Positions 9,042 through 47,332 of a stretch of DNA of 64,000 bases are shown piece by piece. Numbering within the stretch: the stretch's first letter is position 1; every line of letters begins with the position of its first letter. Made by a program: the position numbers and the translations under genes. Source of the stretch: Eucommia ulmoides (taxonomy: Eukaryota > Streptophyta > Magnoliopsida > Garryales > Eucommiaceae). Location of the stretch: positions 6,643,726 to 6,707,725 of the forward strand of contig CM028327.1 in NCBI GenBank assembly GCA_016647705.1, written 5' to 3'. The notes beneath the pieces are model-generated. The model ran no database searches. It was not told the DNA's origin and saw nothing but the letters and a program-made list of their open reading frames with translations.

Positions 9042-10722
9042 TCAATCTATGGGCTTGAGTTCCATTCCTTTCAAGGTTTTGTAAACCTTTTCTTGAGCTA
9101 ATCCTTTCGTCAAAAGATCAGCTAGGTTATCATCAGATCATACATGATCCACTCTCACAGCCCCTGTCAAGATATACTCTCTAATAGTGCTGTGTTTGCG
9201 ACGTATTTGTCGTTTTTTTTTCGTTATAATAACGGTTCTGAATCTTTGCATTAGCCGCGGTACTATCGCAATGGATCAAGACAGCTGGAATCGGACTCTC
9301 CCATAAAGGAGTATCAGAAAGCAGGCTTCTTAACCACCCTGCTTCCTCGTTAGCTGAAGCTAGTGCAATCATCTCAGACTCCATAGTAGATTGAGCCAAA
9401 ATAGTCTGTTTCTTAGATTTCCAAGAAACAGCACCACCAGTTATACTAAATATATAGCCGCTAGTTGCCTTGGAGTCATCTGAAAGGGTGTTCCAATCAG
9501 CATCGCTATATCCTTCCAGAACAGCGGAAAACTTCTGATAATGTAATCCAAGGTTCATAGTTCTTTTTAGGTATCTCATGACCCTATCAATAGCATGCAA
9601 ATGCTCAATACTAGGTCTGCTTATAAACCGGCAAAGTAATCCCACAGCATACGTTATATCGGGTCTAGTGCAATTAGTGGCATATCGAAGACTGCCTATG
9701 ATGCTCGCATACTCAGATTGTCTAACACCGTCATCTGTGTTCTTGAACAATTTCACACTAGGATCATAAGGAGTACATTCTGGTTTACAATCAAAATAAT
9801 TGTATTTCTTTAGAATTTTCTCTATATAATGAGATTGATCCAAAGAAATTTCCTGTTTAGACCTAGTTATTTTAATACCAAGGATTACACTTGCTTCACC
9901 AAGATCTTTCATGTCAAAATTAGCACATAACATGGATTTCACATGATTCACAACATGAATATTGGAACAAAAAATCAGCAAGTCATCCACATAAAGACAT
10001 ATAATAGTTCAAATATCATTTTCAGATTTATAATAAATGCATTTGTCACTTTCATTTACTTTAAAATCATGTGAAATAACTAGATTATCAAATTTCTCAT
10101 GCTATTGTTTAGGTGCTTGTTTTAAACTATAAAGAGATTTATCTAATTTGCACACTTTATTTTCTAGACCAGGAATTACAAATCCTTCAGGTTGGTCCAT
10201 ATAAATCTCTTCTTCTAATTCACCATTCAAAAAAGCAGTTTTAACATTCATTTGGTGCACAACAAGATCATGAATTGCAGCAAGAGATAAAAGTACGCGA
10301 ATAGATGTAATTTTAGAGACAGGTGAGAAAGTATCAAAGAAATCTATATTCTCTCTTTGTCTAAACCATTTGGCTATGAGACGAGTCTTATATTTATCAA
10401 TGGTTCCGTCGGGTTTCAATTTCTTCTTAAGAATCCATTTACAACCAAGAGGTAAATCTACAAAATGCCAAGTTCTATTTGACTCGAGAGAGTCCAATTC
10501 ATCATCTATAGCCTCTTTCCATAAATTGGCATCTACAGAGGACAATGCCTCTTGGAGGGTGAGCAGATCCTCCTCTAAGGTATATGCACAGAAACCCGAA
10601 CCAAAGTCCTTAGCAATACGAGGCCGTTTACTCCTTCTAGGTTTAATATCTAATTCCTTATCAGATTCATTAATCCTAATGATAGGTTCATTACTAGATG
10701 TTGAGCCCCCATTATTCTTCAA
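9042..10722 (-). pseudogene. Copia reverse transcriptase and RNase H region
   Basis: Reads on the minus strand from the RVT_2-type domain (DELDSLESNRTW, LKPDGTIDKYKTRLIAK, FSPVSK) to the palm motif YVDDLL at 9976-9993. The copia RNase H follows (YSDADWN, SGYIFSITGGAVSWKSKKQ, STMESEMIA) and then a tail with NLADLLTKGL, ending at the stop 9042-9044. The first catalytic aspartate, normally in DVKTAFLNG, is Asn here (codon 10246-10248). Frame breaks or stops occur near 10100, 10007 and 9200. The product would convert element RNA to DNA, but this copy cannot be active. Confidence 0.92.
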
Positions 10723-10740
10723 TTTGAAAGGAAATTTATA

Positions 10741-11881
10741 TTAATAAAAATCAGCATCATTTGATTCAAGGATAACTCGATCTTTCAAATCATAAAATCT
10801 ATAAGTTTTGTTATTCACCACATAACCAATAAAAACACATTCATAAGCTCTACTGGCAAGTTTTTTTTTTTTTAGATCAGAAATTCGAATATATGCCAAA
10901 CAACCCCAAGTTTTAAAATAAGACAAATTTGGTTTCTTATTTTTGAAAACTTCATAAGGTGAAATTTTACTTTTCGATTTGGGAACTCTATTAAGCACAT
11001 AGCAAATCGTCAATAAAATTTCACCTCACCAGTGACAAGCTGCACCAGAGTTAAGTAAAATAGCAACTACAGATTTAGCAAAAGTTCTATTTTTCCTTTC
11101 AACCTTACTATTCATTTAAGGAGAATACGGTGCAATTTTTTTTATGAATAATCCCATGAGAATTATAAAAATCAATGAAAATATCATAATCATATTCGGT
11201 TCCTCAATCACTACGTAACCTCTTAATTTTCTTATTGCATTGATTTTCAATCTCAGTTACAAATATTTTGAACATATCAAACACTTCACTTTTATTTTTC
11301 ATGAGATAAACAAAAGTGTAATTAGAGCAATCATCTATAAAAGTAATAAAATAATATTTACCATTCCTAGTCATGACACCATCAAATTCACAAATGTCAG
11401 AATGTATCAAATTAAGAGGTTCAGATTCTCTAATTATTGATTTATTAAGGGTTTTAGTAATCTTGGTTTGACTGCAAAATTCACACTTTTCAAAATCATT
11501 CAAAGACAGTTTAGGAATTACTTCTAAATTGTTTAAGTTTTTAATAATGCGTTTGTTAACATGACAAAGTTTAGCATGCCAAATATTAAAAGAACATAAT
11601 ATGTAAGGAGAAGAAGAAATTTTATTAATTTCCACATTCAGTCTGAACATTCCATCAGTTGTATAACTCTTCCCAACAAAAACATTATTTTTGGTTAAAG
11701 TGTACAAATCAGCCCCAATAGTTTGAGTGAACCCCGCCTTGTTAAGAAGATAGCCCGAAATCAAATTCTTTCTTATCTCTGGAGTATGCAGAACATCTAT
11801 GACTGTCTTTTCAGAGGTAAACTTTAATTCCACTTCACCAAAACTGGTAACAATAGTGGAGTGAGAATTACCCAACAACAC
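10741..11881 (-). pseudogene. Copia integrase region
   Basis: The minus strand shows the GAG_pre-integrase zinc-binding segment (HAKLCHVNKRIIKNL ... CEFCSQTK). The catalytic core follows (HSDICEFDG, YFITFIDDCSNYTFVYLMK), and then the C-terminal part with KTWGCLAYI and FIGYVVNNKTYRFYD. Stops and a frame change interrupt it between about 11014 and 11203. Integrase would insert the element cDNA into the genome; this copy is broken. Confidence 0.9.
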
Positions 11882-11884
11882 TTT

Positions 11885-12650
11885 TTGTCTTTATTTTCAG
11901 AATAAGACTTGAACATGGTACGATCATGGCAGACATGGCGTGAAGCACCAGTGTCCACCCACCACCCTTTGGATTTACCAACTATATTGATTTCAGAAAT
12001 CATAACTATAAGTTGGTCCTCAGTAAGATTTGCCTGTAGAGCAGGACGACGTCTTTGCCAGCAATTTCGAGCCAAATGGCCCGCCTTCCCACAGTTATAA
12101 CAAGTAAACTGTTTATAATTATTTCTTGAAGGGGGTTTGTTTCTATTCTGATTTTGATGTACATTTCTGTTCTGGTTATTGTGGTTGCGATTTTGATTTT
12201 GATTTTTCATATTTTTTCCTTTGGGTTTCAGAACAGCATAAAATGATTTTTTGTGAGCGTTGTTAGAAATAACGTGCATTTCATCTTTCTGATCTTATTT
12301 TCGGGCTTCCTCTTTAATTCGAAGACGAGTGATCAAATTTTCTAAAGAAAACTCTTTAGTTTTGTGCCTCAGAGTATTCTTAAAATCTTTCCAAGAAGGG
12401 GGTAATTTGTCAATTAAAACAACAACTTGAAATTGTTCATCAAGGGACATACATTCAGCAATTATTTCATGAGCGATTTTCTGAAGTTCATGAGACTGAA
12501 CTTCCACAGATTTGTCGTCGGTCATTTGGTATTTTAGATACCGACTAACAACATATTTTTTACTTCTAACCTCCTCAGTGTCGTATTTTTTCGAAACAAC
12601 ATCCCAAACTTCATTTCTAGTTTTGTTAGAGCAGTAATAATCATACAGAT
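11885..12650 (-). pseudogene. Copia gag C-terminal part and protease
   Basis: On the minus strand, the UBN2-type gag segment (RSKKYVVSRYLKYQM, LIDKLPPSWKDFKNTLRHK) is followed by a stop near 12295. A basic Asn/Gln-rich linker and the CCHC zinc knuckle CYNCGKAGHLARNC (about 12061-12102) come next. The aspartic protease motif WWVDTGASRHVC is at about 11930-11965. The first part of gag lies on the far side of the solo LTR (15435-15692). The zinc knuckle would bind element RNA and the protease would cut the polyprotein. Confidence 0.9.
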
Positions 12651-25278: not shown

Positions 25279-28200
25279 ATGCAAGGTATAAGACACGACG
25301 ATTATGGAAGGCCAAATTACCGTAAGTGTTTCATGTTTTAATCTCTTTCATCTTCCCTCTGTGTTCGATTTGTAGTTGATACATTTTTTAAATGCATGCG
25401 TTATTTCTGTATTCTGCATGTTGGTATTTTTTTTAGTGTGATAAAGGCACTGGTATCTTGTTTCCATACATTCCAACATTCTTGTCTTCATTTTTTGTCT
25501 TTGCTTGAACGGTGGTCCCTTGGCTGGTTGCATAAATTTTAGGGTTTTTAATCTATTTTTTGTGCACTTTTTATGTATTCCCTTTTTTTTTGTCTTTGTT
25601 GGGTCTTTTAAGCTTTACTGCTTTAGTTAATTATTTTTTTTGTTTTTCGTTCTGTTTTGTTAATGACAGCCCCAAACTCATCTTATTTCTCTGTCAAAGT
25701 TCACTACGGTGGTAGATTTGTAAACTCAAAATATGTTGTAGGGGCAATTTTCTACTTTGATAACTGGGATGGGGATAGAATATCATTGTTAGATGTTGAG
25801 GATATGGCAGAGGCCTTAGGGTATAATACTTCTAAATCTGAGGCTTTATTGTTTTATAAGATTCCCACCCTTCATCTAAACAAAGGTCTGAAGATTCTTA
25901 TCACTGATAATGATGTTCTTGACATGGTTAGGATTTTACCACCGAGTAGAGTTATAGAATTTTATTTTGAGGATAAGGGTAGTGAGCCCCAGTTTCAGAG
26001 TCAAGCATGTTCAAATGATTTGGCTGAACCTGTACTTCCTCCTCTGCTTTTGACGCAGAGTAAACACAATTTTGACAATGATGGGGCTAAATTAGGGGTT
26101 GAGGAAGGGGCTAAATTAAGGGTTGAGGACGGGGCTGAATCAGGGGTTGGGTTAGAGGCAAGGGCTGAATCAAGGGATGAGACAGGGGATGAGGAAGAGT
26201 CAGATGAGGATAGTGAATTCAGTGGGAGAGAACAAGATGAAACAGACGATGATTTATTGTTTGAAGCTAATGTAGATTCCGAGAGTGAATGGATGGGACG
26301 TAAAGAAATGGGGAAAAGTAGTAATTCCCATCAGCCTACCGTTAATGTGGATGATATTGAAGTAGAGTCAGAATATGCTGATGAGGACGAGGATATTAGG
26401 GCTAAGTCAGGGGATGAGGAAGATGAGGATACTCATAATGTTTGGCCAGAGTATAGGAAAGGAATGGAATTCCTAGATAATCCTTTTGAATTAGGGATGT
26501 TGTTTTCTTGTGGGGCAGAACTTGTTAAGGCATTGAGGGGATATGCAATAAAACAAGGTAAAAATATGTTTTTGAAGAAGAATGAGAAAAAAAAAAGTAA
26601 GGGCGGTATGTAAAGAATCGGGGTGCAGGTGGTTTATTCAAGCTTCTTTAAACGAAAATGGTGACATGCAAATTAAGAAGTTGAATGGAGATCACAGTTG
26701 TGGCAAGATGTAATCCCGAATGGAGTTTGAAGGCGTTTAAGGATGCTGTCGAGACTGAACTGTGCATTGGTGTATCGAAGGCACTGGTATTTAGAGCAAA
26801 GAGAAAGGCATTAGGGATGATTGAGGGGAGTTATGGAAAATAGTACAAGAAGGTTTGGGATTATGCCGAAGAATTGAGAAGATCAAACCCTGGCTCAAGT
26901 GTTGTAGTGAAATCTGAGTTTGATGAGGAGGCTGGGCAGCCTAGATTTCAACGGATTTATGTTTGTCTCAGAGCTCTAAAGCAGGGTTTTAGTAATTGTT
27001 GCAGGCAAGTATTGTGCCTAGATGGATGCTTCATTAAAGGGCCATTTCCTGGACAGATATTATGTGCAGTTGGAGTGGATGAAAAAATGGTATGTATCCG
27101 CTTGCATATGCTGTGGTTGAGTTTGAGTGTGCAGACAGTTGGAAGTGGTTCATAGAGTTGGTGGTCAATGATATTGGGGTCACAAATCAGCAGAATTGGA
27201 CTTTCATTTCAGATGAACAGAAGGTACTTTTATTTTATTTTTTGCTCATTCATTTTTCTTTTGTTCATTTGTAATTGTTTTCTGTAACTGATCTGCTGTA
27301 ACATTCTGTAACTGTTTTTTTTTTTGTTTTTGTTTATTTGTAATTTAACAGGGGTTGGAGACAGTGATAGAGACTATACTTCCTGGAGCTGAGCACAGAA
27401 ATTGTTTGAGACACATCTATGATAACTACAAGAAGCAATTTAGAAGTAAAATAATAAAAAACGCTTTATGGTCTTGTGGGTCTGCATATAATTTACATTA
27501 CTTTGGGAAGGCCATGGATAGGTTAAGATGTGTAGATGAGAATGCATTTCAGTGGGTCAACAGACATGCCCCTAAGAAATGGGCTAGGTCTCACTTCAAT
27601 CTAAACACCCAATGTGATAAATTGTCGAACAATCTAGCTGAGTGTTTTAATGGCTTCACCCTTGGTGCTAGGGATAAGCCAATTATCACTTTGCTAGAGA
27701 CAATTAGGTGTTTATTGATGAAAAGAATGCAAATAAAGAGGGAGAATATAAGAAATATGGAGACAACCATAGGACCAAAAATTCATGAAGTCTTAGAAAA
27801 GAATAAAAGAGAAGCTGGGAAGTGTAGGGCTGTGGTCTGGAGGGCTGATGTTTCAAGTGTTGTGTCAAGATGGAGACCAATTTGTGGTTGATTTGGGCCA
27901 TCGGACATATGCTTGTCGGAAGTGGGATTTGTCTAGAATCCCATGTGAGCATGCAATTTCAGCAATTTGGAGTAAAAAAGAGAGCCCAGACAAGTATGTT
28001 GCCCACTAGTTTAGAAAGGAAACTTACTTGGCCACCTATGAGCCCATCATACCACCAATGAATTCATCCAACTTGTGGCCCAAATCTGTGAACATTGAGT
28101 TGTTACCACCTCTGCACCGTACACAACCTGGGAGGCCCAAAAAATCTAGGAAAAGGGGACCAGATGAGGTTTCAAGAAAGTGCACTCGTTTGAGGAGGGT

Positions 28201-30620: not shown

Positions 30621-31990
30621 TATATTTATAAATCACAACATATTTATATTTTAAGACATTTTGAGCCGTTGGATCGGATATCTAAAAGTCTAGATTGAAT
30701 CTGGACACATTTTATGTTTGAGACATTTTAGACTGTTAGATCGAATATCTAACAGCTGAGATTGTATTATATTAAGAGATATTTTCAGCTGTTGAATTGG
30801 AATAAGATTCAATGGTCAAGATTAAATCATCAATCCTTTCTTCCCCAAATCTCGCTGAACAAATTTCTCTCTCCTCCATAAAATACTCGGGCGCCTTTAC
30901 TGGATCAACTCAAGGCTCTCATTCATGAAAATTTCAGTCCTTCCCTCTTCTCTAACATTGTTTTATCTGCCACGAATGCCTTCCCCAAACAAAATCTGCC
31001 ATATTTCTCTAACACGAACACCGTCGATGCTATGCTCTCTCTCTGCAAATCAGCCTTTGTTTTACCACCGCCACTACCGTTAGGAGCCACGAAGTCGTGA
31101 CCACCACCACCAAACTTGCCCGATCTCCACGCAGCTACCACCGCACCACTAGCCTTTGCCACCTCATCGACGTTATGGCCTTCGATCACCACCATCGACT
31201 GTTTTGCCGGTTGGCGACGGTTTGGACGAAGGTAGGTGAAGAAAAACAATGGGGGCTGAAGACGAGCAGCAACAATCCAATGAACCGAACACTATCCCTA
31301 TCTTGAACGCTAAACCTTATATCATCACAGTATGGAGCATCAAGAGGTCTTCGATTTCTCCTCTTTTATATTTTTTTTTGGGATAAGTGCATTTTTGGCC
31401 CTCACAAATGAACTTTGTGTCAATTTTGGACCCCCGTATTTGAAAATGCACACATTAGCTACCTCACATTTCAATTTCACTTCAATTTGGACCCTAGGCT
31501 AACAGTGTGAATGGAATTGGACGAAAAATAGGCACGTGCAAATCACGTGACCTTATTAGCAAGGGTAAATATGTAAATTCAATTTTTTTTTTCTGGTGAC
31601 CCTAGGAGATCAGTCTCTCACTTGTCCAAAAAAAAAAGGGGCGCACACCAATAGATCCCTTTTCACAATTCCATGTCCCAATCAAACCCCAAGTTTTTTT
31701 TTTTGCATTGTTAGGTCCTTTTTGTTTTTTCGTGACCATCTTGCCCCTACAAGTGTCCGGATTAGGCATTCTTGTTTCCTTTCCTAGAGCTACAGTTAAT
31801 GTTCGAGAATTGCATTCCACAAAACCTGGGCGTTGACTGTTGGACATAAAAATAACATGAAACTTGGCTGTTTTGTGATTTTTTTGGTGTTCAAAAAATA
31901 AACTTTTTACATCATATTAATCAGAAAAAAATCAGCGTTAATTTGATGTGATATTCGTGATTTTTGGTTGAGTTAATATGAAGTTGTGTG
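30621..31990. other. Intergenic DNA with transposon ends
   Basis: No gene is supported. Sequence at 30655-30800 has repeated GTTGGATCGGATATCTAAAA-like phrases. At 31380-31600 the text GGGATAAGTGCATTTTTGGC through GGGTAAATATGTAAATTC looks like one end of a decayed DNA transposon, but I found no inverted partner. The second MULE's motif field begins at 31994. Confidence 0.4.
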
Positions 31991-32290
31991 GGTGTTACAT
32001 TCAACATTCGAATGGTGTGTGTGGAATGTAACATCCAAATATATGTATTCTGGATGCACGGTGCTGTGTATCACGAAGCACCAAATCATTCCCCCCATGC
32101 CTTCTCTTTCAAATCGGTCGTACTTTCTGTGAATAGGTATGACCGTTTAGGTAGTGGCGCGTTTACCATATACAGAGCATAAAACCTTCCATTATTAATC
32201 CAAAACCCTAAAAAAACTGTCGGTATTCCATATTTCCTCCCCCGACTTCCATATCGAAACACTCTAAAAACCTTCAATCTCTGAAAGACA

Positions 32291-35200
32291 ATGGTGACAA
32301 CTCACCGTAAGATGAGAACCGTAAACCCAAATACGGCTGCAATCGCAGTGAATCTCACCGACTCGGGTAGGTTTTATCGATTTCTCAAATGTTTTGTGCC
32401 TTTTTGGTGTGTGTTTATTATAATAAACACTATATTACTTGTTTATTTGTTGTTTGATCCTAAAAAAATCTACATGCAAGTGAAAGCGACACTATAAAAA
32501 TTATTTTTTTTTGGATCCTGTTGGGTTATGTTTTTGTCGTGTTTATGGGTGTGTTTGTACTCGCCCTCTGATTCGTCTTCTGTGTTTGTATGTAATTGTT
32601 ACATTCAACCCCATGTTGCATTTCGACACTGTATCAGTCGCTCTTTTCTCGATTATGTTGGGTTCAATTTTGTCGTGTTTATGGTTATGTTTGTACTCGC
32701 CCTCTAACTCGTGGTCTGTGTTTGTATTATGTTCTGTATTTGTGTGAAATGTAATATTGGTTGAATGTAACACAAAGTTCTTTTTGGTGGAATTTTTTGA
32801 AGAACTTGGGTTGAATGTGTCATTTTTAACAAATTTGACTCAAATAAGAATCCAGAGTGTGTGTGAAAAAGAATGTAGCATATTGAATCTTGCATAATGA
32901 CATATGTTGTCTGTGTAAAAGACACTCGATGCGTTTGAATTGAATATAACATATGTTGAATGTAATAAAATCTTTGTTTTGTGGGATTTTTTATAAATTT
33001 TGTTTGTCAAATTTTGTGAGTTAGCTTTATTTTTGTGTAAAATATTCTGTCAGTTAGTATGTTGAATGTAACATTCATTCAACATTGATTGGTTTGTTGA
33101 ATGTAACATGATTTGACTGTGCATGTGTATAACACGCCGTGTGTGTAGAATGATAACATTTTCAATTTGGTGTTACATTCAACACAACAAAGAGAAAATG
33201 TTTTTTGGTAAAAAAAAATCAAATACAGTGTGTGCCCGATCCCCCTTGTGGCTGTGTTAATTGTTACATTCAACCTGATTTGTGTTGAATGTTATATTCA
33301 ACATTGATTCTCTGTCAGTTAGTTTGTTGAATGTAACATTCATTATCATTCATTGTGTGTTTTTCCAGACGATGACGTTCCCGTAAGATCCACGCAGCGC
33401 TCTGCGTAGCCTAGTGGGTCTCAAAACTCCATAATGCCATCGTGTAGCTCTTCCAATTCAGACGCCATTGCTTCATCGCCGTCTAGTATTCCAGAATCGC
33501 GCCTGTTGTGTGCCCCCATCGCTAAATACCGGGTAAATCTATCACAATTTTTCTCGCTTGTTTCCAGTATTCGTCTGCATCATTCACACCTTGAACTGCT
33601 GAAATGGACGCCCTTTTGGAACACGATGAGTACTATTTTTCAAGAAAATTTAGTGGATTTAGCTTTTAACAAAATTGATAGCATGTGTGAAAATATCATA
33701 CTTACATACCAACCGCACCGGAAGGCTTTCAGAATTGGCCCGAAGTTGGTGACTTTCACTTCCGATGATGTGCAACTGATTTTTGGCTTTATATCCAAAA
33801 AGAAACCGATACCAGCCCGGTATGTGAAGAAAACTGATAGCTTATTTTTGCACCTACAGGATGTGAAGACCAATCGGATGAGTGTAGTTTAAATTAGGAA
33901 CATGCTGGTTAGAATTATAGGGAGTGATGTTGAAGACGATGTTGAGGACGTCCTGTGGTTGCTCTATTTGCATCTTATCGCGACGTGTTTTTTTGCAAAC
34001 AAAGGTTAATCGTGTAGTATTTCTGATATAAGGCTTGTTGAGGATTTGGGTGCCCTTTCATCCTACAATTGGGCTGATCGTGTGCATTCCAACCTAATGT
34101 CTTCAATTAAAGCTAGATACCAGACACCGTCATCTGTTGTTGGATGCGTCCTCGCGTTATATGTTATATTTCTTTTTCATTTGTTTAAAACTAAAAACTT
34201 TAGTTAATAAGTATTGTCCGTAACTTCTGCTATTTTGATTTAAACTTTTTATATTTAGTTCTGACTGTGTGAGCACACTAAAATTCTCCGTGCTACTCCC
34301 TGGCGAGAGATATTTATACCACGATAGGGGAAGTGGAATATGCTGGAGCTGATGACTGTTGCATCAAGGCTGCACCTGTCTGAAATTGATGGGGCTTAGG
34401 TTTGTTACATTGTGTGATGAATGTAACATCCATACTGTATGTTGATGAAAAATGACATTGTTTCAGGTCGATGAAGGTTATTTAGTTGAGACAATAGCTT
34501 AAATACAAGTCGGTGTTGTATTGCCCGTCCATGGTAATACTGAGGAGTCGAGGACAAGAAGTAAAGGCAAAGCAAAAGTTAGCTCATCAAGCGAGTTTCC
34601 ATCTTTTGATTTGGGGATATCACAGTCGTTTAACGAGGATGCCACTAATTTTGGTGGTGGTTCGCAAAATCTGAATGACCCTGTTGAGCAAAATCGTCAG
34701 TTAACAACCAAAGTTGAGGCATTGAGGAATTCTTGTAGGTGTCTAAGACTGAGGAAGTCGACGGAGATTGCAAAACTACGTGAAAAGGTACGAGAGTTGA
34801 AGCGGACAGTACAACAATTGCAGGGAGATCTTATGGAATCAGAGGTGCACGTAGTTACGCAGCAGGTGCTCCATGAGACTGAAAAAACCAATTTTGAAGA
34901 GCAATTGGTCGAGGCTGTTGTCCATTCTGTAACGCAGTCAGTCAAGGAGAAGAATAAGCATGAAGATAATATTGTTGGCATCTCTGAATTCTATCAAATG
35001 GAGCTAGCAGATAGGGATAACATAATCGTGCAACAAACTAAAGAGATTGGGCGTCATAATGACTCGGTAATGGTCCAGCCGCCGCGATGCGTTTCGCGAT
35101 CGAAGAGCCAGCCGACAATGCCCAATTCGCTTGTAAAAAATATAAAGAAATGTGTGAGAACGCGAAAGACATGAAAGGACTTTGTTCATGAGTATACTGT

Positions 35201-38200
35201 CCCCGTCAAAAAACAGCGTCGATTGAAGAAGAATGAAGAAAATTCTGTCAAGGATATGGTCGTTTACACTGGTGAGCCCCCTGCATCAACTGCAGTTGTT
35301 GTTGAGCCTCATGTGTTGCCTCCCCGAGAGGGGGCTGTTGCCTGTCTGTTGCTCCCTGCCGATTGGGATAAGCTTGAGTTGATCCTACACACAGAAGGGT
35401 CTTCGTAAGTATTTATTTTCTTTTGTTTTTTTTGTTTAAGCTTCAAATTCAAACATCCCCATGTCTCATATTTTGAATAAATCTATAGTGCGTGCATATG
35501 GAGAGGTAAATTTCTGAATGCTCATTTATCAGTGCGCGACATTCTTGGTATATTATGGGATGATCAGTTATCAAATTTTGTAAGTGCCTTCCAGAGTTTT
35601 CTGTGTATCACCATAGGTGTGCGTGTTACATTCCACATGTATTGAATGTAACACTCTTGAGATATGTTGAATGTGACTTGATCTCCTGTGTTGAATGTAA
35701 CATCCTATGTGTTGTGTGTAGGTTATTAATTCATATATGGAAATTATGCGGACTGAGCAGAATAGAGTTGTCACCCAGCTGCCGGATCTACCTAATTCAT
35801 CATTTTTTTTATAAACAGTGCATGTTGGGTGAGTCTAAAAAACACACACCTATTTATCTTTTTTCCTATAGTGTAAAACACATGCACTGTAACTCCATGA
35901 AAATGCCACAAATAATGTTTGTTCATTTTTTGCGCCTTTACTGCTGTGTCTGCCAGACCTGGATCAAGCGAAAAGTTACTGATTGCCTTGCAAAATTTAT
36001 CAATCCAAGCATAATAAATGCGTTTTCGTCCATTGTCCGGTACGTGCATTTTCCTTTACATCATGAGGGGGCGACAGCTGATTCGGGGCATTGGACGCTC
36101 CTCGTGTGTGATAAGCAAAAATCAACCTGGGATCATTATAATTCTATTGATTTGCAGCAACCGTGTCACGACCCGTCCCAGACACCTGTCATCCCAGGAC
36201 CGACGTGACGACAATATGACATCACCTGCTTCACTATTTACTTCTTGATACATTACTCAAATTCCATGAATGTACTATACAATTTAAATCATACAACAAG
36301 AACGTAATCTTTCACTATCTTATATTTTCCTCTCTGACAGCTTAACTCAAAAATCTTCCCAGATGACTCCACCTAATGCCAGTAGGGGACCTCTCCTAAG
36401 AAATCACCTGTGAGTGTACTGCCTTCTTAGTAAAAATATTTTTTAAGATAATAATACATTCTAAATAATACAACATTTAAATGGATCAAGCTTAATGCAT
36501 ATAAACAAACACATTTTGAACCGTAGTATAAAAATTATATACCACAAGAAAACTCTTTCTTCCTGCCATTCAGAATTTATCATCCATAAACATATATCAA
36601 ATATATGAAAATCGTCCAAACCATCAGCATAAAATAATATGATAAATCGCCAACGATGATATAATAAAACACTACATCAACACGTATAACACAACATCAA
36701 ATACGACAAAACATCACATACGACCAAATACAACATATAACACCATATCTCACCACACCACACCATACCACACCACACCACCCCCACACCTCGGCTAGCC
36801 ATGTGATCGTTTTAACCTCACGATCGGGAGTTGCAACGGTACCGTATCCCGTAGGATATGCCTTCCTAGCGGGATATAACAACGCTCCGCTGGACTGTGC
36901 TAGACGGGTGAACAACGCTCCGCTGGACTATGCCAAGCGGGTGAAACAACGCTCCGCTGGACTATACCAGACGGGTGAAACACCGCTCCGCTGGACTATG
37001 CCAGACGGGTGAAAATCTAACACCAATCTCTAACTCATTTCAACAACAACAACTCATCTCTATCTCAACAACAACAATTCTGCCCACAATCAACCACCTC
37101 ATCAATACAATAATATCATCATCAAACTACAACCCAATTATATCAACATCTATCTCCAAAACCGATTTAATCCGAAAATCATATTTTTCACCTTTGTTTA
37201 AAAAAACCATCTAATTTCAACAAAACCATTTTTTCCCTTTATTTTTAGAAACCATACATTTTTAGGAAAAAACAGATATTTTTCACTCTCTTTTAAAACC
37301 ACCAAGTCCAACGAAAATCCTTTTCAACTTTCTTTCAAAACTAACGTAATTTAATGAAAATCCAATTTTTACCAACTCACCCAAAATCTGCTTGATCCAC
37401 TTCATTTTTAAAAGTATCTAATTTAAATACAACCATTTTCTATCATATAGATATAAAAATAGTTCGGCAAAAAGGGCAGTACACTCACCTGATATCCGCT
37501 TTCGTAACCTTTATCTGACTATCTCCTATCCGAACTCTGGTGCCTGCGAACCTAACGGTGACAGGACCTAAATTAATACTTTTGTATAAAACAAACTAAT
37601 CACGCTATGAAATCCTAATTTCCTATTTCGCATCTTTTATTACGAAATATAACTATTCAACTAGTATCGTTTCGTTACGGTTTACTATTTATAAACTCTA
37701 TTCTTATAAACAATCTCAAGATTTATTATTTTCATTTAATTACTTTAAGGTTAGAAAACTAAATTTAGAATTCTCAACATAAATTAGAAAGGTTACCCGA
37801 TTAAAAATTTACCTGTTTCCGAATCCACAGCCGGCCGCGAATTAGGTTTTTATTCGGGGTTGTTTGTGTAATTTTCTCATTTTTTCCCTCCTTCTTCCTT
37901 CTTCTTGTTTTTTGTTTTTCCTGTTTTCTGCTTCGCCGTCGACAATACTGACTCGCCACCGCAAATCCCTGGCTCCGATCAAGCCCACACATCCACGGGG
38001 ACAGAACACCCACGATGTCGGACGACCGACCGGAACACCCGCCACGCCGACCGACTTTTTTTTTTTTTTTTTTTTTTTTTTCTGTTTTGATTCAGTTCGG
38101 TCGCCCCTCTCTCTCTCCTCGCCATCCGACCACCCTCAACGATCACTCACGCCATCGCCAGCCACCTTACACCGATCACGTCCACAAACACGACACACAC

Positions 38201-38552
38201 CCACATACCGCCGAAACACACACGACAATACACACCCACTCACCGAACATCAGTGACAGACGGCGACGATCCCGTACCTCCGTAGCGAACTACCGATAAC
38301 CCACGCCGGCAACCCACAACCGACGATGAACCGAACTCACACACACACACATGTTGAACGGCCGACCGAAACGCTCACCGCCGACAAACCATCCTCGGAC
38401 CGCCGGACCAACCTTTCTCTCTCCTCTGTTTCTTCTTTCTTTTTCTGTTTTTGATTCCTGGTTCAGCCGACCGCCGGCGACGACAAAACCTTCTCCTCTC
38501 TCTCTCTCTCTTTTCTCTATTTTTCTCGATTCTTCGCTCCCCCTTATCCCTC

Positions 38553-38612
<60 letters not shown>

Positions 38613-39420
38613 GTATGCGTGTGAGATCCCTAGGCCGGACAGCCCCCTCCCATACCTCTACCAATTTCCACCCTACCCATTCCCAACATTTTATGTGTAT
38701 ATATATATATATATATTTATATTGAGATATTTTTATAAAATTACACAAATCTCCCCTTATATTATGTTGTGGTAGAAATTTAAACCCAAAAATATGTTTG
38801 AAGGTTTTTAAATTTCAATATAACCCCCCTAAAATATTAATTTACATAATTAATATCGTAGTCTACCCTGACATTTCAAAATATTTTTAAAACGCGACTT
38901 GAATTATTCGTTTATGAAAAGTCGGGGTCTTACAAACCGGGATCATTTGACCATTATTATGGGGATGCCAAAAAAGTTATAAGATTTTTTTCCAACACTT
39001 ATTTGCGTGTCCAGTTCGGCACCCATTGTCCTTACATTGTTTTTTTGTCCTCACAGATTTCATACATCACCAAGTTGCTTTGGACTATGGCTAAGGAATA
39101 TAGGCTAAAGCGTGTTCAGGTTTCCAATGTGTCAGAAGTGCCTAATCAGGGTGGGTCAGTGTAAGTGTCATTTGCTATTCATGCATGGTACCGTTCTGTT
39201 TTAAAAAATGTACCACGTAGCGCTGACTGTCCCATCATGTTTTTGTGTGTGCGGTGTTGCTGTAGTTTACATAATAAAGCAGATTTACAGTGCGCAAAAA
39301 ATCGACGTTGATTTGGGGCCTGACGGATTTCGAATGGAACGAGCTGCACTGGTCCATGCGTTCCTCAATGATCCTCCCCGCTCTTGGACTGTGGACAATT
39401 GTTTATCTAGGAAAACTTAA
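32291..39420 (+). pseudogene. DUF1985-like / coiled-coil / Ulp1 (C48) protease gene of the MULE, split by a solo LTR
   Basis: Exon 1 32291-32366 (MVTTHRKMRTVNPN) joins an exon from 33369. The fold 33434-34150 (FRIGPKLVTFTSDDVQLIFG, WLLYLHLIATCFF, SYNWADRVHSNLMSSIKARY) resembles DUF1985 proteins. A basic coiled-coil exon follows (34521-35402; LREKVRELKRTVQQLQGDL). The C-terminus is an Ulp1-type cysteine protease: VINSYMEIMRTEQ, GHWTLLV (His), WDHYNS (Asp), PNQGGS (Gln) and CGVAVVYIIKQI (Cys). Family role: SUMO-type peptidase; whether MULE versions cleave SUMO is unknown. In-frame stops lie at 33407, 33890 and 35172, with a frame change near 34005. A solo LTR lies between the Asp and Gln motifs. 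Dispersed motifs crowd its introns. Confidence 0.8.
36164..38934. mobile_element. Solo LTR (2771 bp) inserted in the Ulp1 domain
   Basis: Begins TGTCACGACCCGTCCC and ends GGGGTCTTACA, with a perfect target duplication AACCG (36159-36163 and 38935-38939). It is the same family as 12651-15434 but inverted. Tandem CGCTCCGCTGGACTATGCC units lie at 36877-37016, poly-T at 38056-38080, GC-rich sequence at 37950-38480, and (TG)n(TA)n at 38552-38609. There are no genes inside. Deleting it with one AACCG leaves the Ulp1 frame open across the junction. Confidence 0.93.
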
Positions 39421-40365
39421 TTTACAGTGTATCCCATACTTCCATAGTAGTTGTTGTTTGAATTGGTCATGATATTTAACCAGCATATAGATTTTTGTTT
39501 TTTTCCATTATGTTGCTAACTTTTTTTATTTTTTTGGGCTGCGTATTACGATGTAACATTGATTACCATTTTCGTATTATTCCCATATTTAACATTGTTG
39601 AATGTGTCAAACATATGAAGATAAATATGGTTTGGGTGTTACATTCAACTTTCTCATTTGAATGTTGAATGTAACATTCAACACAGGTTGTGTTACATTC
39701 AACATGCAAATAAAAAAAAAATGTAAAAAGCTTTGTTTGATACATTTCATCACAACGAGTGAAATGTAACATTCAACACATGTCGTGTTACATTCCCATT
39801 TGTGAATTATTTAGTGCATCATCAATTAACATAGTGTGAACCCCATTCCATTTCATGCGGTGTTTTGTGTGATATTTGCTCCATCAAAATATAAGCATTG
39901 TTAGATGTTTGTATTAGTAATCGTGTACATAGACAATCATTTTAGCACCACCTAAGTCATCCATTTCACGTCCTTCACTGATTGCTGGTGATTGAAACGT
40001 CATGATGAAAAACGTACGCCTGTTACCTGTGCACAACGCGGCGTTTCTTTTGTGTTGGGGAGCGAACCGTCTAGTACGTTTGGGTATGGGGCGATGGTCA
40101 TAAATACATTCACCCCATTGTTCTCCCTTTATATATCTCACTTGAATCCAAACGTCGACACTGGTTCGCGCGTCTGGTTCCTCCCCAACGATTAGGGTCC
40201 TGTTTCGTGTTGCATGTTACTTCTTTGTTCATTTCTGCGCAGATATAAGCCTCTGAAAATCCCATGCATACATCGTAAGAGTTCATTTTCGAATTCCTCA
40301 TGTTGTTAATTGTGGATATTTGTTTTGTAAAAATGAATATTTAAATATTTTTTAATTATAATAGG
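39421..40365. other. Spacer rich in the dispersed motif
   Basis: It contains at least six copies of the GTTGAATGTAAC family (39597-39797). From 39992 to 40195 a 67-codon frame without a recognisable domain is relatively GC-rich; it could be an upstream exon of the small gene at 40366, but I cannot support that with a splice model. Confidence 0.4.
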
Positions 40366-40653
40366 ATGGCCGGACAGTAGAACAACACTGATTTTGACAA
40401 GTCGCTCGTAAAATGGGACGAGGACTCTGAAGTGTTGATGGATGTTGCACATGGTCTGCGGTGAAAGTTGGGAGGTGCCCGCTACATGTACGCTTCGATG
40501 GCCAAGGACAACGAGGCCATGAAGTTGGAGATCCGACGACTCAATTTGCTCGTCTCTAGTCTGCACGATGAGGTTGAGATGTTGAGGAGCCACCTTGGAC
40601 CTGGTTATGTTGCACCAGCCCCAAGTGAGTCGTCGATACACATGGAGCAGTGA
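40366..40653 (+). pseudogene. Small coiled-coil protein relic in the MULE
   Basis: Preceded by an intron-acceptor-like TATAATAG. It opens ATGGCCGGACAG, hits TAG at 40378 and TGA at 40462, and otherwise stays open to TGA 40651-40653. The second half (AKDNEAMKLEIRRLNLLVSS then LHDEVEMLRSHLGPGY) is a heptad-type coiled coil. Codon use is GC-richer than the surroundings, typical of a former gene. No known domain. Many GRF-type MULE genes end in such a coil, but no GRF finger is visible here. It may be a third element gene, analogous in position to vanB; that is inference. Confidence 0.5.
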
Positions 40654-41517
40654 AGCCCATGGTTGGTTGTTGTTTTTTTGTTTTTTTTTTTTGTATCAAA
40701 TTACACATTTTTTATCTATCCCCCCCTGTCTTTAAATAAACTAATGTCTCTGTTTTGATCGTCAAACATTATGTTTATCGCCTGTTTTATAATCTGGATG
40801 TGTGTTATACACTATTTTTGTTTTTTGTTTTTCTCGAGAAAAAAAATGTTACGTTCAACATCGTTTTTTCTCGGGTTTGAATGTTACATTCAACATTGAC
40901 TTGTATATGTTTTTGCACTGAAATGTTATATTCAACATTGACTGGTCTGTTGAATGTGTCGTGCACATATAAAAGTTGCAGTTTTTTGTTGGTGTCACAT
41001 TTAACGAACACAAAGAAATAAATAATGGGCAAGCAAAAATAAAATGTGTACAACAAGTTCATCATGTGGCTGTACAAAAAAAGAATCCGTCTCTACGATG
41101 GTGTTACATTCCACAAAATAGTCGATGTTGAATGTAACGCGCACATAGCAAACTTCTACAAAAAACTACATACAATGTGTAGAGCAGATTCATCATGTGA
41201 CAATTCATCCCCATGAATTTGTCAAGCAACCAAAATACAATATGTGGAACATATTCATCATGTGGATGTGAAAAAAATCCGTCTCTACGCTGATGTTACA
41301 TTCAACAAATAGTCGATGTTGAATGTAACGTGCACGTAACAGAACTTATATATAAGCAACATATAGACACATATAAATTGTGGATGACAAACCAACCCCC
41401 AAATAAGAAAAAAAATGTCTGTTTTATTCATGTCCAATAAATCTATGAGGAAACATAGATTTTATTTTAGTATGAAAAATAAAAATGAAATAAAAAATCA
41501 AAGTATTGAAATTCCCC

Positions 41518-43825
41518 CTATTTGAGTGGTGCTTTGCAAGATTTCCTATTGTGTCTCGACATTTGACCACATCTTCTGCATCGTCATTCTTTTACCTCCC
41601 CCCGAGATGCAATCGGAACTTTCCTTGGTATTCCCGATTGTTTCCTTGATAATGGAGGTAGAATCATTGTTTCGCTCTCGATCGATATTGGTCGTTCCAT
41701 TGTTGGTATTGAGTATATACCTCTCAAATACATCCCCCGATAAAAGCAGCTCCGAAAATAATCCTCTATGTATTTGAATGTTGGAAGTCTACTCTTGTTG
41801 ATAGCTATAAATGCATGTGCACATGGGAACCCTTTTATCTGCCATTGTCGGCACGAGCATGAACGTCCCTCAGTGTCAACTAAGACAGAGTGCGTTGAAT
41901 GAACTTCGAACACTCCATTGCCAGACGAGCTGACGTTCCATGTTCGCCCTTCATTCGTCAGTTCGCATATTTTGTTCTCCCAATAAGGCGTGATCTCCTC
42001 TTATAACTTGTTTGCTTCATCCATCCTCTTTGCCATTAAGTTCATCCACTTTATTCTTATCTTGTCAATCAACAAGATTGCAGGTAGATGATGAAATTCG
42101 CTTATCCAAAAATTAAAACACTCAGCCAGATTGGACATCATCTCACCATACCGTTTTCCTCTGAAAAAAGTGTTACTATACTTCATGGTTGACAATTCAT
42201 GGATGAATCTATGCACATTTGTGCCCCCCTCATACATCATTTGATCGTACAACATCTTGTACATTTCTAGCGTGTGTGCATATGCCAATCCGTTTAATTT
42301 TTGGATCATCATCTCCTTGAAAGTCGTTCTTGTGCCAGTCATCGCAGCCCTCAAATTCATTTTCAAGTGATGAATACAATATGCGTGGTGGCATTGTGGG
42401 AACACGTTTTGTACTCCTTGTAAAATCCCATTGTGTCTGTCAGAAATGAATGTTATCACTATGTCTGGATCGACAATCTTCTTGAGTTCTGATAAAAACT
42501 ACAACCAATTATTATTGTTTTCTGCATCAACAATGGTGAACGCAACTGGTAACATTCCTACATGCACCATGCAAGCGAACATACAATAAATCATACAATA
42601 TACAAATGAAACCAAGAAAATGTTGAATGTAACATTGTCACGTTTGACATAAAAAAAAAAAAGGTAACCAGGTTGAATGTAACACTGAAATGTTTGAAAG
42701 CATTTTTGTATACATACCTTGGTTTCTATTCTTTGTTGTTGCTGCTAGTAAGTTCTCCTTATACCTACCAATCAAAAAGGTACCGTCGAGGAACAACATG
42801 GGGCGACAAAAACGAAATATGTGTATGCACGCTTGGAATGCAATGAATATCCTTTTGAAATGTTTTATGTCCTCATTGTATTCCAGTGTTACATAACTGC
42901 CGGGGTTTGTCTCTCTATATTTCTCAACATATCATCTTAATTGATCGTATGACGACGAGTAATCACCGAATACGTTGTTCTTGGCTTTTTCTACCCCCAT
43001 CCATGCATTTCGATATGATATCTCTAGTCCATATTGTTTTCTAAAATTGTCAACGACATCTATTGGGCGAGTTTTTGGATTTTCATGCACCTCGTTAGTC
43101 AGGCACGACGATATAATGTTTGAACTCAAACGTTTGCCTTTTGTTGTCCGAAATGCAACACCACACATGTGTTCTTTTACTAGGCTGTGAATGTAGAATA
43201 CACCGTTTTCACTCCTCACCCACCCATGCACAAACCATGGGCAATTCATTTCCTCTCGCACTGCGCACGCGGCTGTGACACGTACCTTGTCATTTTTTAG
43301 GTACCAAAAATTAAACCCCACATCTACCGCATATTTTTGCAACGCCATGCGAAATTCGCTCGTCCCTCCTCTGAATTTTTGCCCCTCCTCCTGTATTCCA
43401 TTAGCCCATTTTGATAATAGCAGCATTTTTTCGTTTGGGTTTTGTAACATGTTACCATAACTACCTATATATTCCATTTCAGCTTTGCTATTATCATTGC
43501 TACGATCGGTGACGGGGACTAACGCAGATGATGATGACCCAGTTGAACCACTTGAATCACTTACCCGTCTTTCCACACATACTTCAATAAGTTCGATCTT
43601 CATTATGCCCGCTAGGAAAAACATTTTCTCAAAGTCCTTTTGGTCGTCCAACACACATTTCGGGTGTCCAATGAGTGAATACGACAACTCAATCATCCCA
43701 CTGCTACAATCTGTCCATTTGTTCCCAATTTTTTGACGAAACCCATCAATATCACAATCATATCTCATCCTCAACACTGTTGTGACATTCTCGTATTTGC
43801 ACAAAAGTGGGATTGATGACGTCAT
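41518..43825 (-). pseudogene. Mutator-like transposase (MuDR N-terminal, MULE, SWIM, zinc knuckle)
   Basis: Minus-strand exon 1 42718-43825 starts at MTSSIPLLCKYENV, with another ATG at 43867. It carries the MuDR N-terminal region (FRMALQKYAVDVGFNFWYLK then CPWFVHGWVR) and the start of the catalytic domain (LFLDGTFLIGRYK, first Asp). A 160 bp intron (42558-42717) holds two dispersed motifs. Exon 2 42557-41518 has FISDRHNGIL (second Asp), NLAECFNFW (Glu), the SWIM finger CSCRQWQIKGFPCAHA and the knuckle CRRCGQMSRHNRKSC. The frame is collinear with no frameshift but with stops near 42932, 42525, 42001 and 41584. Family role: nuclear cut-and-paste transposase. The copy is dead unless read through. 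Confidence 0.93.
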
Positions 43826-44019
43826 CTTGTTCAAACAACAAAAACGTGTTTTCCCATCAGTGCACAAAAAAACAGATCACTGGTACCACACAAACTTATT
43901 ATGTGTTGTTCATGTGGAATGTAACATCCTGTGTTTTTTGTCCCTGAGTGACATTGAATCCATTTGATGTATGTATGTGGAATGTAACATCACGTGCGCA
44001 CTCCCCCCCCTTCCCTATC

Positions 44020-44720
44020 GTGTGCGGATATTGAATGTATCATCCACGCATGTGTCGTATGCGCGCTCCAGACCGTGTATGGATGTTGAATGTAACATCC
44101 ATACGTGTGTCGTATGTGTGTGTTGAACGTAACAATCATTGTTTATATAAGCAAAAAACAATGCCAGCAGTATCCAACTGAAGTGGATTATCCCGTACGC
44201 ATGTTCAACACACACTGATCGTGTGTTTTTTTGGGGTGTAATATGATCGTGGTAGATGTTGAATGTAACATACATGCATATGACGTGTGTGTGTGTTCAT
44301 GTTGAATGTAACATACATGCATGTGTCATGTGTGCATGTTGAACGTACCAATCATTGTTTATTTTCACAAAAAAAAATGCCGGCAGTATCCAAACGAAGC
44401 GGATCGTCTCGTACGCATGTTCAACACACAGTTATCGTGTGGGGTGTTGAATGTAGCATGATTGTGCTGATATTGAATGTAACGTCTATGCATGTGTCGT
44501 ATGTGCCTGTTTCCATGACAATGTTTAATTTCCCAGACAATACACAAAACAAACACCCAAAACACAACAAACTGGTATCCCCTCTTCGTTTGGGGGTGTT
44601 GAATGTAACATCCATGAATGTGTCGTATGTGCTTGTTTTTCATGACAATGTTTAATTTCCCAGACAATACACAAAACAAAACACCCCGAAACACAACAAA
44701 CTAGTATTCCCCCTTCGTAA
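44020..44720. repeat. Right subterminal composite repeat array of the MULE
   Basis: Repeated modules: the dispersed motif followed by CATGTGTCGTATGTG (44030, 44085, 44301, 44472, 44598). A block of about 100 bp with CAATCATTGTTTAT and CAGTATCCAA occurs at 44128 and 44345. A block of about 80 bp starting CATGACAATGTTTAATTTCC occurs at 44515 and 44641. It lies upstream of the transposase start, in the promoter or terminal position. The MULE spacer 43826-44019 also holds motifs. Confidence 0.85.
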
Positions 44721-45366
44721 ATGTTTTTATATACAAAACGATTGTCTTCGAAAATGAACAACATAAACTTCATCTAAAAATAATTTTTAAATGATTGCGT
44801 TCTGTTGTTGAACACACTCATAAATGTGTATGCATCGTACAAAAACCATTTTTTACATACTTGTTACGACTGGGTGCTGTTGCTGTGAAAATATCGACTT
44901 CTAAGTATCGACAATGCTTGGCCGGTAACTCTTCCACTTCCGCTCTTTCGATTGAATTTCAAAATGTATTTCGAAGTGCTCTGTCTATTATTCGTCGGCT
45001 CTACATTCACTGAACTGATTTGAAATTCAAAAAACCCTAATAATGGAATGTTACGTTTCTCGAACCACCGATGCATTGTGGATGGAAATCGCGATCTAAA
45101 AATGGAAACGCTTGCTCCGAAAATGCAGGGAGGGTAAATATGTAAACGATTATCGTCGTTAATTGCGGGATGGGGCTTCTCAGTGCAGAACCGATCAACG
45201 ACGGGACTTGCTTGTTCAGTTTCGAGCGTATGGGTTTGATCGGTCACTAGTAATAAAAAACAGGATGGCGTGGTCATTTTCTCAAAAAAAAAAAAAAAAG
45301 CCTCTCTCTCTCTCTCTTTCCTTAAGCTCACCAATTCTGAGTTCCTCCCTCACCTTCACGCTTTCT

Positions 45367-47332
45367 GAGTTCTTTACATAATAAATATTTTAAAAAAAAA
45401 AAAATTGACAAAACATATATTTAAACTTATTTACAAAAGTCGAGTATCTCGGTGTTGGGAACACCGAGACTTAATTTTTTATTTTTTTAAAAAAAAATTG
45501 GTCCCAACATTTTGAACGCCGAGACCAAAATACAACCCAAACAGTGTTAAACACTGTTTGGGTGTTGGGGACCTAGTCCCGGTGTTCACAACACTGGGAC
45601 TAAGTCCCATTTTTCTATACCAACAAAGAGCAGAGAGAAAGAGAAGAGACAATGCAGAGAGAGAGCAGAGCGCAGAGAGAGAGAGAGAGAGTAGAGAGAA
45701 AATGAAATGTGAAATATAAGCCTTTTTCACACTTTATACCCCTAAAGTCCGATCATTATTTCATTCTGATTAATTTTTTTTGTTTTTTAGTTTTACTCTT
45801 TTTTTTTTTTTTTAATTTCGTTTTTTATAAAGAAAACTTTTTTTGTTTGTTAATTTTAATTTTTTTTATTGTTGTAATTTAAATTTAAAAGTGAGGTCAA
45901 ACAGTCGATCAAAAATTCAATTCGGTCGATCATATTGAATTTGGTCAACAGAATGTCTCATTCGGTCGAACAAAAATTAAATTTGGTCGATCAAATTGAA
46001 TTTGGTTGACCAAAAATTGAATTTGGTCGACCATCAATTTGGCCGACCGAATTCAATTTTTGGTAAATCGAATGGGACATCTTGTCGACCAAATTCAATT
46101 TTTAGTTGACCGAATGAAATATCATGTCGACCAAATTCAATTTGATCGACCAAATTCAATTTTTAGTCGATCGAATTGAAATTTTGATCGATCGAATTGA
46201 ATTTTTTGTTAACCGAATGAGACATTTTGTCGACCAAATTCAATTTGGTCAACCGAATTGAATTTTTAGTTGACCAAATGAAATATCATATCGACCAAAT
46301 TCAATTTGATCGATCAAATTCATTTTTTGGTCGACCGAATTAAATTTTTGGTTGACCGAATGAGACATCCTGTCGACCAAATTTAATTTTTGTTTGACTG
46401 AATGAGACATCCTGTCGACCAAATTCAATATGGTCGACCGAATTGAATTTTTAGTCGACGAAATTCAATTTTTGGTTGACCGAATTGAATTTTTGGTCGA
46501 CTAAATTCAATTTTTGGTCGACTGAATAGGACATCCTGTCTACCAAATTCAATTTGGTCAACCGAATTGAATTTTTGGTCGACCAAATGAGACATCTTGT
46601 CAACCAAATTCAATTGCTCGATCGAATTGAATTTTTGGTCGACCGAATGAGACATCATGTCGACTAAATTCAATTTGATCGACCAAATTCAATTTTTGGT
46701 CAACCTAATTAAATTTTTGGTCAATCGAATGAGACATCATGTCAACCAAATTCAATTTTTGTTTGACCGAATAGGACATCTTGTCGACCAAATTCAATAT
46801 GGTTGACCGAATTAAATTTTTGATCGACTGTTTGACCTTACTTTTAAATTTAAATTACAACAATCAAAGAAATTAAAATTAACAAAAAAAAAAAGTAAAA
46901 CTAAAAAAATAAATAAAAAATTAATCAAAATAAAATAATGGGCAAACTTTAGGGGTATAAAGTATGAAAAATGCTTATATTTCACATTTCATTTTCTCTC
47001 TACAGTCTCTCTGCGCTCTGCTCTCTCTCTACGCTATCTCTCCTCACTCTCTCTGCTAACCGTTGGTAAAGAAAAATGGGACTTAGTCCCGGTGTTGTGA
47101 ACACCGGGACTAGGTCCCCCAACACCCAAACGGTGTTTAATACCGTTTGGATTGTATTTTGGTCCCGGCATTCAAAACGTCGGGACCAAAAAAATTAAAA
47201 AATAAATAAAAAATAAAATCCCAGTATTGCGAACACCGGGATCAAAGTCCCTCGACTCTTGTAAATAAGTTTAAATATATATTTTGTCAGAATTTTTTAT
47301 TTTTTTTTAAATATTTATTATGTAAAGAACTC
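45367..47332. mobile_element. Foldback MULE-like element 1
   Basis: Ends GAGTTCTTTACATAATAAAT and its inverse at 47313-47332, with near-identical 10 bp flanks (CACGCTTTCT and CACACTCTCT, 8 of 10). Each arm, about 360 bp, includes self-complementary modules: CTCGGTGTTGGGAACACCGAG (about 45450), CAAACAGTGTTAAACACTG (about 45539) and GTCCCGGTGTTCACAACACT (about 45576). CT/GA-rich tracts follow (45610-45712 and 46990-47060). The centre is a GTCGAC-rich array. No coding region is supported. Confidence 0.88.
45893..46835. repeat. Degenerate GTCGACC/AATTCAATTTTTGG array
   Basis: Dozens of short alternating modules built from TTGGTCGACC, AAATTCAATT, TTTTTGGTCGACCGAAT and GAATGAGACATCCTGTCGAC. Many are in mutually inverted order, so the block is rich in overlapping hairpins. 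Its edges repeat each other inverted (AGGTCAAACAGTCGATC and GATCGACTGTTTGACCT). Frames through it are repeat artefacts. Confidence 0.9.

Follow-up and report, generated by a model that had tools for sequence, protein, structure and literature searches.

A 14-bp motif dispersed through the non-coding DNA of a MULE family in Eucommia ulmoides, a candidate site of self-recognition

Described self-recognition systems and the Eucommia element

The Arabidopsis protein VANC21 binds introns, intergenic regions and terminal non-coding regions of its own family, and its action through a short motif accompanies a loss of methylation; in the sections of that study drawn on here, the sites of VANC21 form arrays of a single orientation, motifs differ between related VANDAL families, and those of VANC21 and VANC6 are given as YAGTATTAY and AGTTGTCC/AGTTGTAC, 8-9 bp in length (PMC5735166). 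VANDALs that carry Ulp1 (KIUs) act like VANC21, and the Ulp1 domain is strongly conserved in eudicots, according to extracts of a further source (PMC13317346). In extracts on other elements, TnpA of Spm binds subterminal repeats (PMC2613891), activation of Spm by TnpA correlates with demethylation (PMC10398659), and MURA reduces the methylation of non-autonomous copies at their terminal repeats (PMC2613891, PMC10398659).

The window, a 64,000-nucleotide stretch of the E. ulmoides genome, contains a broken MULE in which the sites of a short motif remain (Table 1). As with VANDAL21/VANC21 and VANDAL6/VANC6, the element has a transposase and extra genes, the motif is dense in the introns, spacers and ends of the family, and some duplications bear the motif; unlike in those systems, the motif spans about 14 bp instead of 8-9, is found in both orientations, and forms inverted pairs and palindromes. 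Both orientations had been noted, and the 50 copies of the element comprise 34 plus and 16 minus; in contrast to the single-orientation arrays described for VANC21 in the sections cited, only the region upstream of the transposase has all of its copies (11/11) in one orientation. Such arrays may not define the VANDAL/VANC (KIU) type, and we therefore compare the MULE with that type rather than class it as a proven member. The sequence of the motif differs from YAGTATTAY and from AGTTGTCC/AGTTGTAC; the original prediction likewise held it to be unlike the VANC21 site. Neither the VANC21 nor the VANC6 motif is enriched in the window.

In the KIU (Kaonashi) elements and Ulp1-carrying VANDALs of eudicots, as far as the extracts describe them, an Ulp1-like gene likewise lies opposite the transposase and there are likewise three coding genes (PMC13317346, PMC2528002). 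This KI-MULE arrangement is present in the window MULE, although, unlike in KIU as described, its Ulp1 match is weak and in a second subfamily one strand carries both the second gene and the transposase. An abstract by Sasaki (2022) on KIU reportedly treats motif sequence, density and helical periodicity. The resemblance to CACTA Spm/En with TnpA lies in a protein of the element itself, here putative, reading repeated short motifs; here, however, the motifs occur throughout the element, introns and central spacers included, instead of being confined to subterminal DNA as in the account of Spm/En cited, and the transposase belongs to a different superfamily.

Table 1. Positions of the MULE, its genes and its motif clusters in the window
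Feature	Position	Strand	Details
Whole MULE	31638..45283		about 13.6 kb with nested LTR; left end GGGGCGCACACC, right end GGTCATTTTCTC
Span of 50 motif copies (TGTTGAATGTAACA core)	31994..44609	both	
Second gene, 5' part	32292..36163	+	broken by in-frame stops; exons by eye
Second gene, exon 1	~32292-32369	+	
Second gene, intron 1	32370..33368		12 motif copies: 8 plus, 4 minus
Second gene, DUF1985/PMD-like domain	33369-34160	+	
Second gene, coiled-coil-like exon	34468-35408	+	
Second gene, intron with motif	35581..35721		4 motif copies
Second gene, Ulp1-like exon	35957-36163	+	
Nested solo LTR	36164..38934		2771 bp; flanking 5-bp duplication AACCG
Second gene, 3' part beyond LTR	38940..39310	+	residue order like the end of the Ulp1 catalytic domain (by eye)
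Spacer motif cluster	39597..39777		7 copies, including two overlapping convergent pairs
Small third gene	40366..40653	+	no Pfam match; two in-frame stops
Motif cluster with divergent pairs	40848..41329		four divergent pairs, 23-28 bp start to start
Transposase	41520..43876	-	DBD_Tnp_Mut, MULE and SWIM domains; in-frame stops
Transposase intron	~42559-42718		2 motif copies
Region upstream of transposase	43914..44609	+	11 motif copies, all oriented alike, some of them within a 216-bp tandem duplication

The element proved larger than the span first assigned to it (31994..44612). Its left end was set at 31638 because the alignments of relatives begin at that base, just outside the motif arrays, two of them strongly (L012, score 76; L020, 68); weaker scores with the same start were obtained for L022 (55), L014 (53), L017 (50) and L019 (41), the best of 15 shuffles reaching 40, while comparable scores came from different start points in L009 (53), L028 (50), L016 (47) and L027 (45), and loci of a control MULE gave 37-39. 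A candidate target duplication, TTTTTACAT, was dropped, since the relatives place the left end elsewhere. The right end, near 45283, resembles by eye the ends of L009, L011 and L016, and L021 aligns (66%) up to about 45290. Poly-A lies on both sides of the element. A search for terminal inverted repeats joining its flanks found none, a further likeness to the VANDAL/VANC (KIU) type; the non-autonomous relative L009 has imperfect ones (66 nt, 77%).

The transposase was recognised by Pfam through DBD_Tnp_Mut (4e-12), MULE (4.9e-7) and SWIM (2.5e-7), and has 88 homologues, the best from Liquidambar, Rhododendron, Malus and Camellia, the top-scoring one being 46% identical over 81% of the query. 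For the second gene all scores fell below the curated cut-offs: DUF1985 at E values of 4e-4 in L044, 0.011 in L045 and 0.0049 in the window read-through; PMD at 0.0039 in L044 and 0.012 in the window, with none in L045; and Ulp1 (C48) at 0.012, in an exon interrupted by the LTR. L044 and L045 are relatives with open frames in the DUF1985/PMD-like exon. The 3' part of the gene had no Pfam match, no homologue was found in the protein database with query sequences that contained errors, and a single-sequence structure prediction of the DUF1985/PMD-like domain (mean pLDDT 45) was left unused. The third gene has a relative in L021, 68% identical over 53 aa.

Several further features were recorded. 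The N-terminus of the transposase (42932-43876) looks PB1-like by eye, and several relatives have a PB1 domain (PF00564). A 161-aa open frame on the minus strand (44864-45349), largely within the right end, has no Pfam match over the 137 aa scanned. Elsewhere in the window lie an element with inverted repeats (45392-47303), densely filled with an internal repeat of AATTTGGTCGAC / GACCAAATTGAA type, and pieces of a Copia-type retrotransposon, with RVT_2 in two frames (9181-11890).

Form and distribution of the motif in the window

Sites were counted as matches to GTTGAATGTAAC with at most two mismatches. Where about 45 copies had been estimated, 50 were counted between 31300 and 45390 (22 exact, 17 with one mismatch and 11 with two); outside the MULE the window holds three sites, none of them exact. 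The total of 53 is, as predicted, far above chance: shuffled sequences gave a mean of 10.3 and 0/100 shuffles reached 53, and a fourth-order Markov model of the non-coding DNA of the MULE yielded a mean of 1.1 sites with the motifs masked, or 12.3 (largest, 20) with the motifs left in. Among 38,521 distinct 12-mers, low-complexity ones excluded, GTTGAATGTAAC heads the largest family in the window, with 40 sites at no more than one mismatch; the runner-up has 29 sites, mostly in one compact repeat at 45.9-46.8 kb.

The motif is better written as TGTTGAATGTAACA, of about 14 bp. Most of the information in the window sites falls at positions 0 to 13, with weaker preferences at -1, 14 and 16, and positions 0 to 13 were recovered again from 271 sites of relatives. 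Its description as a near-palindrome holds weakly, for 8/12 positions are symmetric, and the well-conserved positions 4 and 8 are asymmetric. No 10.5-bp periodicity was seen among the 50 sites, and a literature search with the 12-letter forms returned no related paper, judging by titles.

With exon limits drawn manually from frames and splice signals, the MULE was divided into 5152 nt of exons, 6144 nt of non-coding DNA and the 2771 nt of the LTR. All 50 copies proved non-coding on this map (random placement, P = 6e-14), and the LTR contained none at up to two mismatches, both in keeping with what had been noted; when three mismatches were allowed, 64 sites were non-coding, exons and the LTR had 2 each, and the rest of the window had 58. 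CpG depletion did not discriminate between the compartments. Many copies are intronic, as would suit a motif acting in RNA, through splicing or structure; intron 1 of the second gene, however, has both orientations (8 plus, 4 minus) and the spacers also carry copies, and we regard an action in RNA as very improbable.

Some blocks bearing the motif are tandemly duplicated, chiefly upstream of the transposase, with 83% identity over 151 bp. These duplications lend something to the idea that tandem duplication and gene conversion spread the motif without any function, an explanation we nonetheless think improbable: only 12/50 sites share a 30-bp flank at least 70% identical with that of another site, and 38/50 are without such a relative. 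Over all 1225 pairs of window sites, the identity of the motifs is 88% and that of the flanks 28%. In eight duplicated blocks, motifs were identical at 104/108 positions and flanks at 268/340, a comparison that is biased because repeat seeds often fall in the motif. The same motif also recurs across subfamilies at different positions and in different numbers, which again speaks against functionless spread.

The sites occur singly, in inverted pairs with a spacing of about two helical turns, and overlapping as palindromes. Of the 13 pairs of neighbours in the window that are spaced at 12-30 bp, 8 are divergent (P 0.0015 when orientations are shuffled), two of these within one duplication. In the genome, 604 divergent pairs with 4-20 bp between the sites were found, as against 0 for the control; among the first 50 inverted pairs listed, the distance from start to start is 21-23 bp in 40, including 26 with exactly 22 bp, and many inverted pairs are related by descent. 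A 19-bp palindrome composed of two overlapping sites occurs 922 times in the genome (control, 0).

The motif across the genome and the MULE family

The 947-Mb genome contains 19,133 exact copies of the motif, compared with 80 of its reversed control, an excess of about 240-fold; the motif is thus not frequent in DNA at large. In order to see where the copies lie, 20 stretches of 10 kb around listed matches were picked by eye within the initial 15 Mb of a single contig, a sample that is for both reasons not random. Thirteen are motif clusters, and each of the remaining seven has one exact site. Related MULEs are present in two of the clusters, L013 and L021, and the other eleven are without such a coding match, apart from a short transposase match in L019. 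Six of these eleven (L009, L010, L011, L016, L018 and L019) form one related set of short non-autonomous elements with a common left end, ends near GGG..CATGCACCAT and motif arrays inside; a 9-bp duplication is exact in L009, with AAAAAATAA on both sides, matches at 8/9 in L011, and is not clean in L016 (by eye). L012, L017 and L020 make up a second, mutually related set, which aligns with the left end of the MULE; L014 shows a weaker match to that end, and L022, a stretch with a single exact site, has four additional sites with one mismatch and a left-end match. In viral contigs, the motif pairs had no match and the transposase had no relative that could be confirmed.

The motif had been expected in the MULE family only. 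It is indeed dense there, but some single-site stretches, L023, L025 and L026 among them, could not be assigned to it, so not every site has been placed within the family. These singletons outside any recognised element, together with the occurrence of the motif, short and well defined, in introns and in upstream DNA, are what might be looked for if the family had adopted a host transcription-factor or chromatin site as an enhancer. At 14 bp, a stringent site is long by the standards of host factors. The genomic excess relative to the reversed control, the clustering at 13/20 of the sampled places and the stretches of control MULE without the motif likewise count against a host factor, which we consider a shade less probable still than functionless spread.

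Membership of the family was examined with exon 2 of the transposase, for which there were 2944 candidates in the genome; 150 were scored and 150/150 match, at 67 to 100% identity. Ten relatives at graded identity (88 to 67%) were fetched, and, as predicted, 10/10 carry the motif, with 20 to 26 copies each in 4.1 kb at up to two mismatches, 5 to 18 of them exact. Only 2/228 of these sites overlap matched exons, and in 10/10 relatives there are copies between the matched parts of the exons, where the transposase intron lies. No copy was found in five copies of the control MULE (3.5 kb each) or in its window copy. The control, at 25627-27891, is an unrelated element, a MULE by appearance with no Pfam match at 0.001, and has 2405 candidates in the genome, of which 150 were scored. 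The motif is dense both in this MULE family and in certain short non-autonomous elements, and is absent from the control MULE.

Linkage of the second gene was assessed from capped lists of 150 transposase copies and 150 second-gene matches, the latter out of 1656 candidates. A listed second-gene match lies within 20 kb of 69/150 listed transposase copies, against an expectation of 0.95, and always on the 3' side of the transposase; the remaining 81 have no listed match within that distance. Of the linked pairs, 46 lie on opposite strands, 4-17 kb apart; the other 23 share a strand, and for 22 the distance is about 2 kb. Since both arrangements were found, gene order has changed while the motif has not.

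Candidate readers of the motif and what a fixed code would mean

The proposal that the motif is the recognition site of a protein of this MULE family is partly supported, by its excess in the genome and its presence in all ten relatives; neither of the two conditions named as refuting it was borne out in the DNA examined. Given a layout like that of VANC21 and the account of KIUs in a review, we take the motif to be the family's own recognition site, and on this analysis it is rather probably bound by a protein that the family encodes and that recognises the family's own DNA. The most likely reader is the protein of the second gene, DUF1985/PMD-like with an Ulp1-like part, which would act in the manner of VANC: it would bind the introns, spacers and end regions of the MULE, its binding would clear silent chromatin and so permit expression of the transposase, and non-autonomous copies with the same sites would share in the anti-silencing effect.

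The transposase is the chief rival as reader. Between subfamilies the domain of the second gene retains only about 50% identity, against a constant motif, and this would also fit the transposase, whose scored exon, at about 75%, is the better conserved of the two, like the motif. The sites could then belong to the transposase, or to an accessory protein, as a requirement of transposition, comparable to those of Spm TnpA at subterminal repeats. That non-autonomous copies carry the motif, some with a MULE-like left end, would agree with this, as would the precedents of TnpA, in which activation and demethylation are correlated, and of MURA on non-autonomous terminal repeats, insofar as the extracts cited above describe them. 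Copies are found, however, in introns and in spacers of the middle of the element, kilobases away from either end, where excision would need none, and the motif is present in the region of the transposase intron in every one of the ten relatives; a role in transposition is accordingly rated unlikely, if less so than the other alternatives.

Returning to the reading as a family-encoded self-recognition site, what is new relative to the VANC systems is a motif that is constant across the sampled subfamilies, that is present on non-autonomous elements, and that has an inverted geometry; by contrast, related VANDAL families have different motifs in the sections cited. A broader and more tentative proposal is that a single self-recognition code has held throughout an old and large MULE family, along with the non-autonomous elements dependent on it, in spite of the change in gene order and a transposase divergence of about 33% (scored exon), and that a multimer reads this code, both at 19-bp palindromes and at inverted sites spaced by two turns of the helix; we offer this as a possibility only.

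If true, the motif would represent, on a large scale and outside Arabidopsis, a code for anti-silencing or self-recognition, with some 19,000 exact sites in one genome. Dips in methylation would be expected at the motif-bearing introns of active copies, and the 14-bp site would provide a specific handle for targeted demethylation. For the family itself, the code would be one without drift between the sampled subfamilies, a fixed code and thus the opposite of the fast turnover of motifs described for VANC systems.
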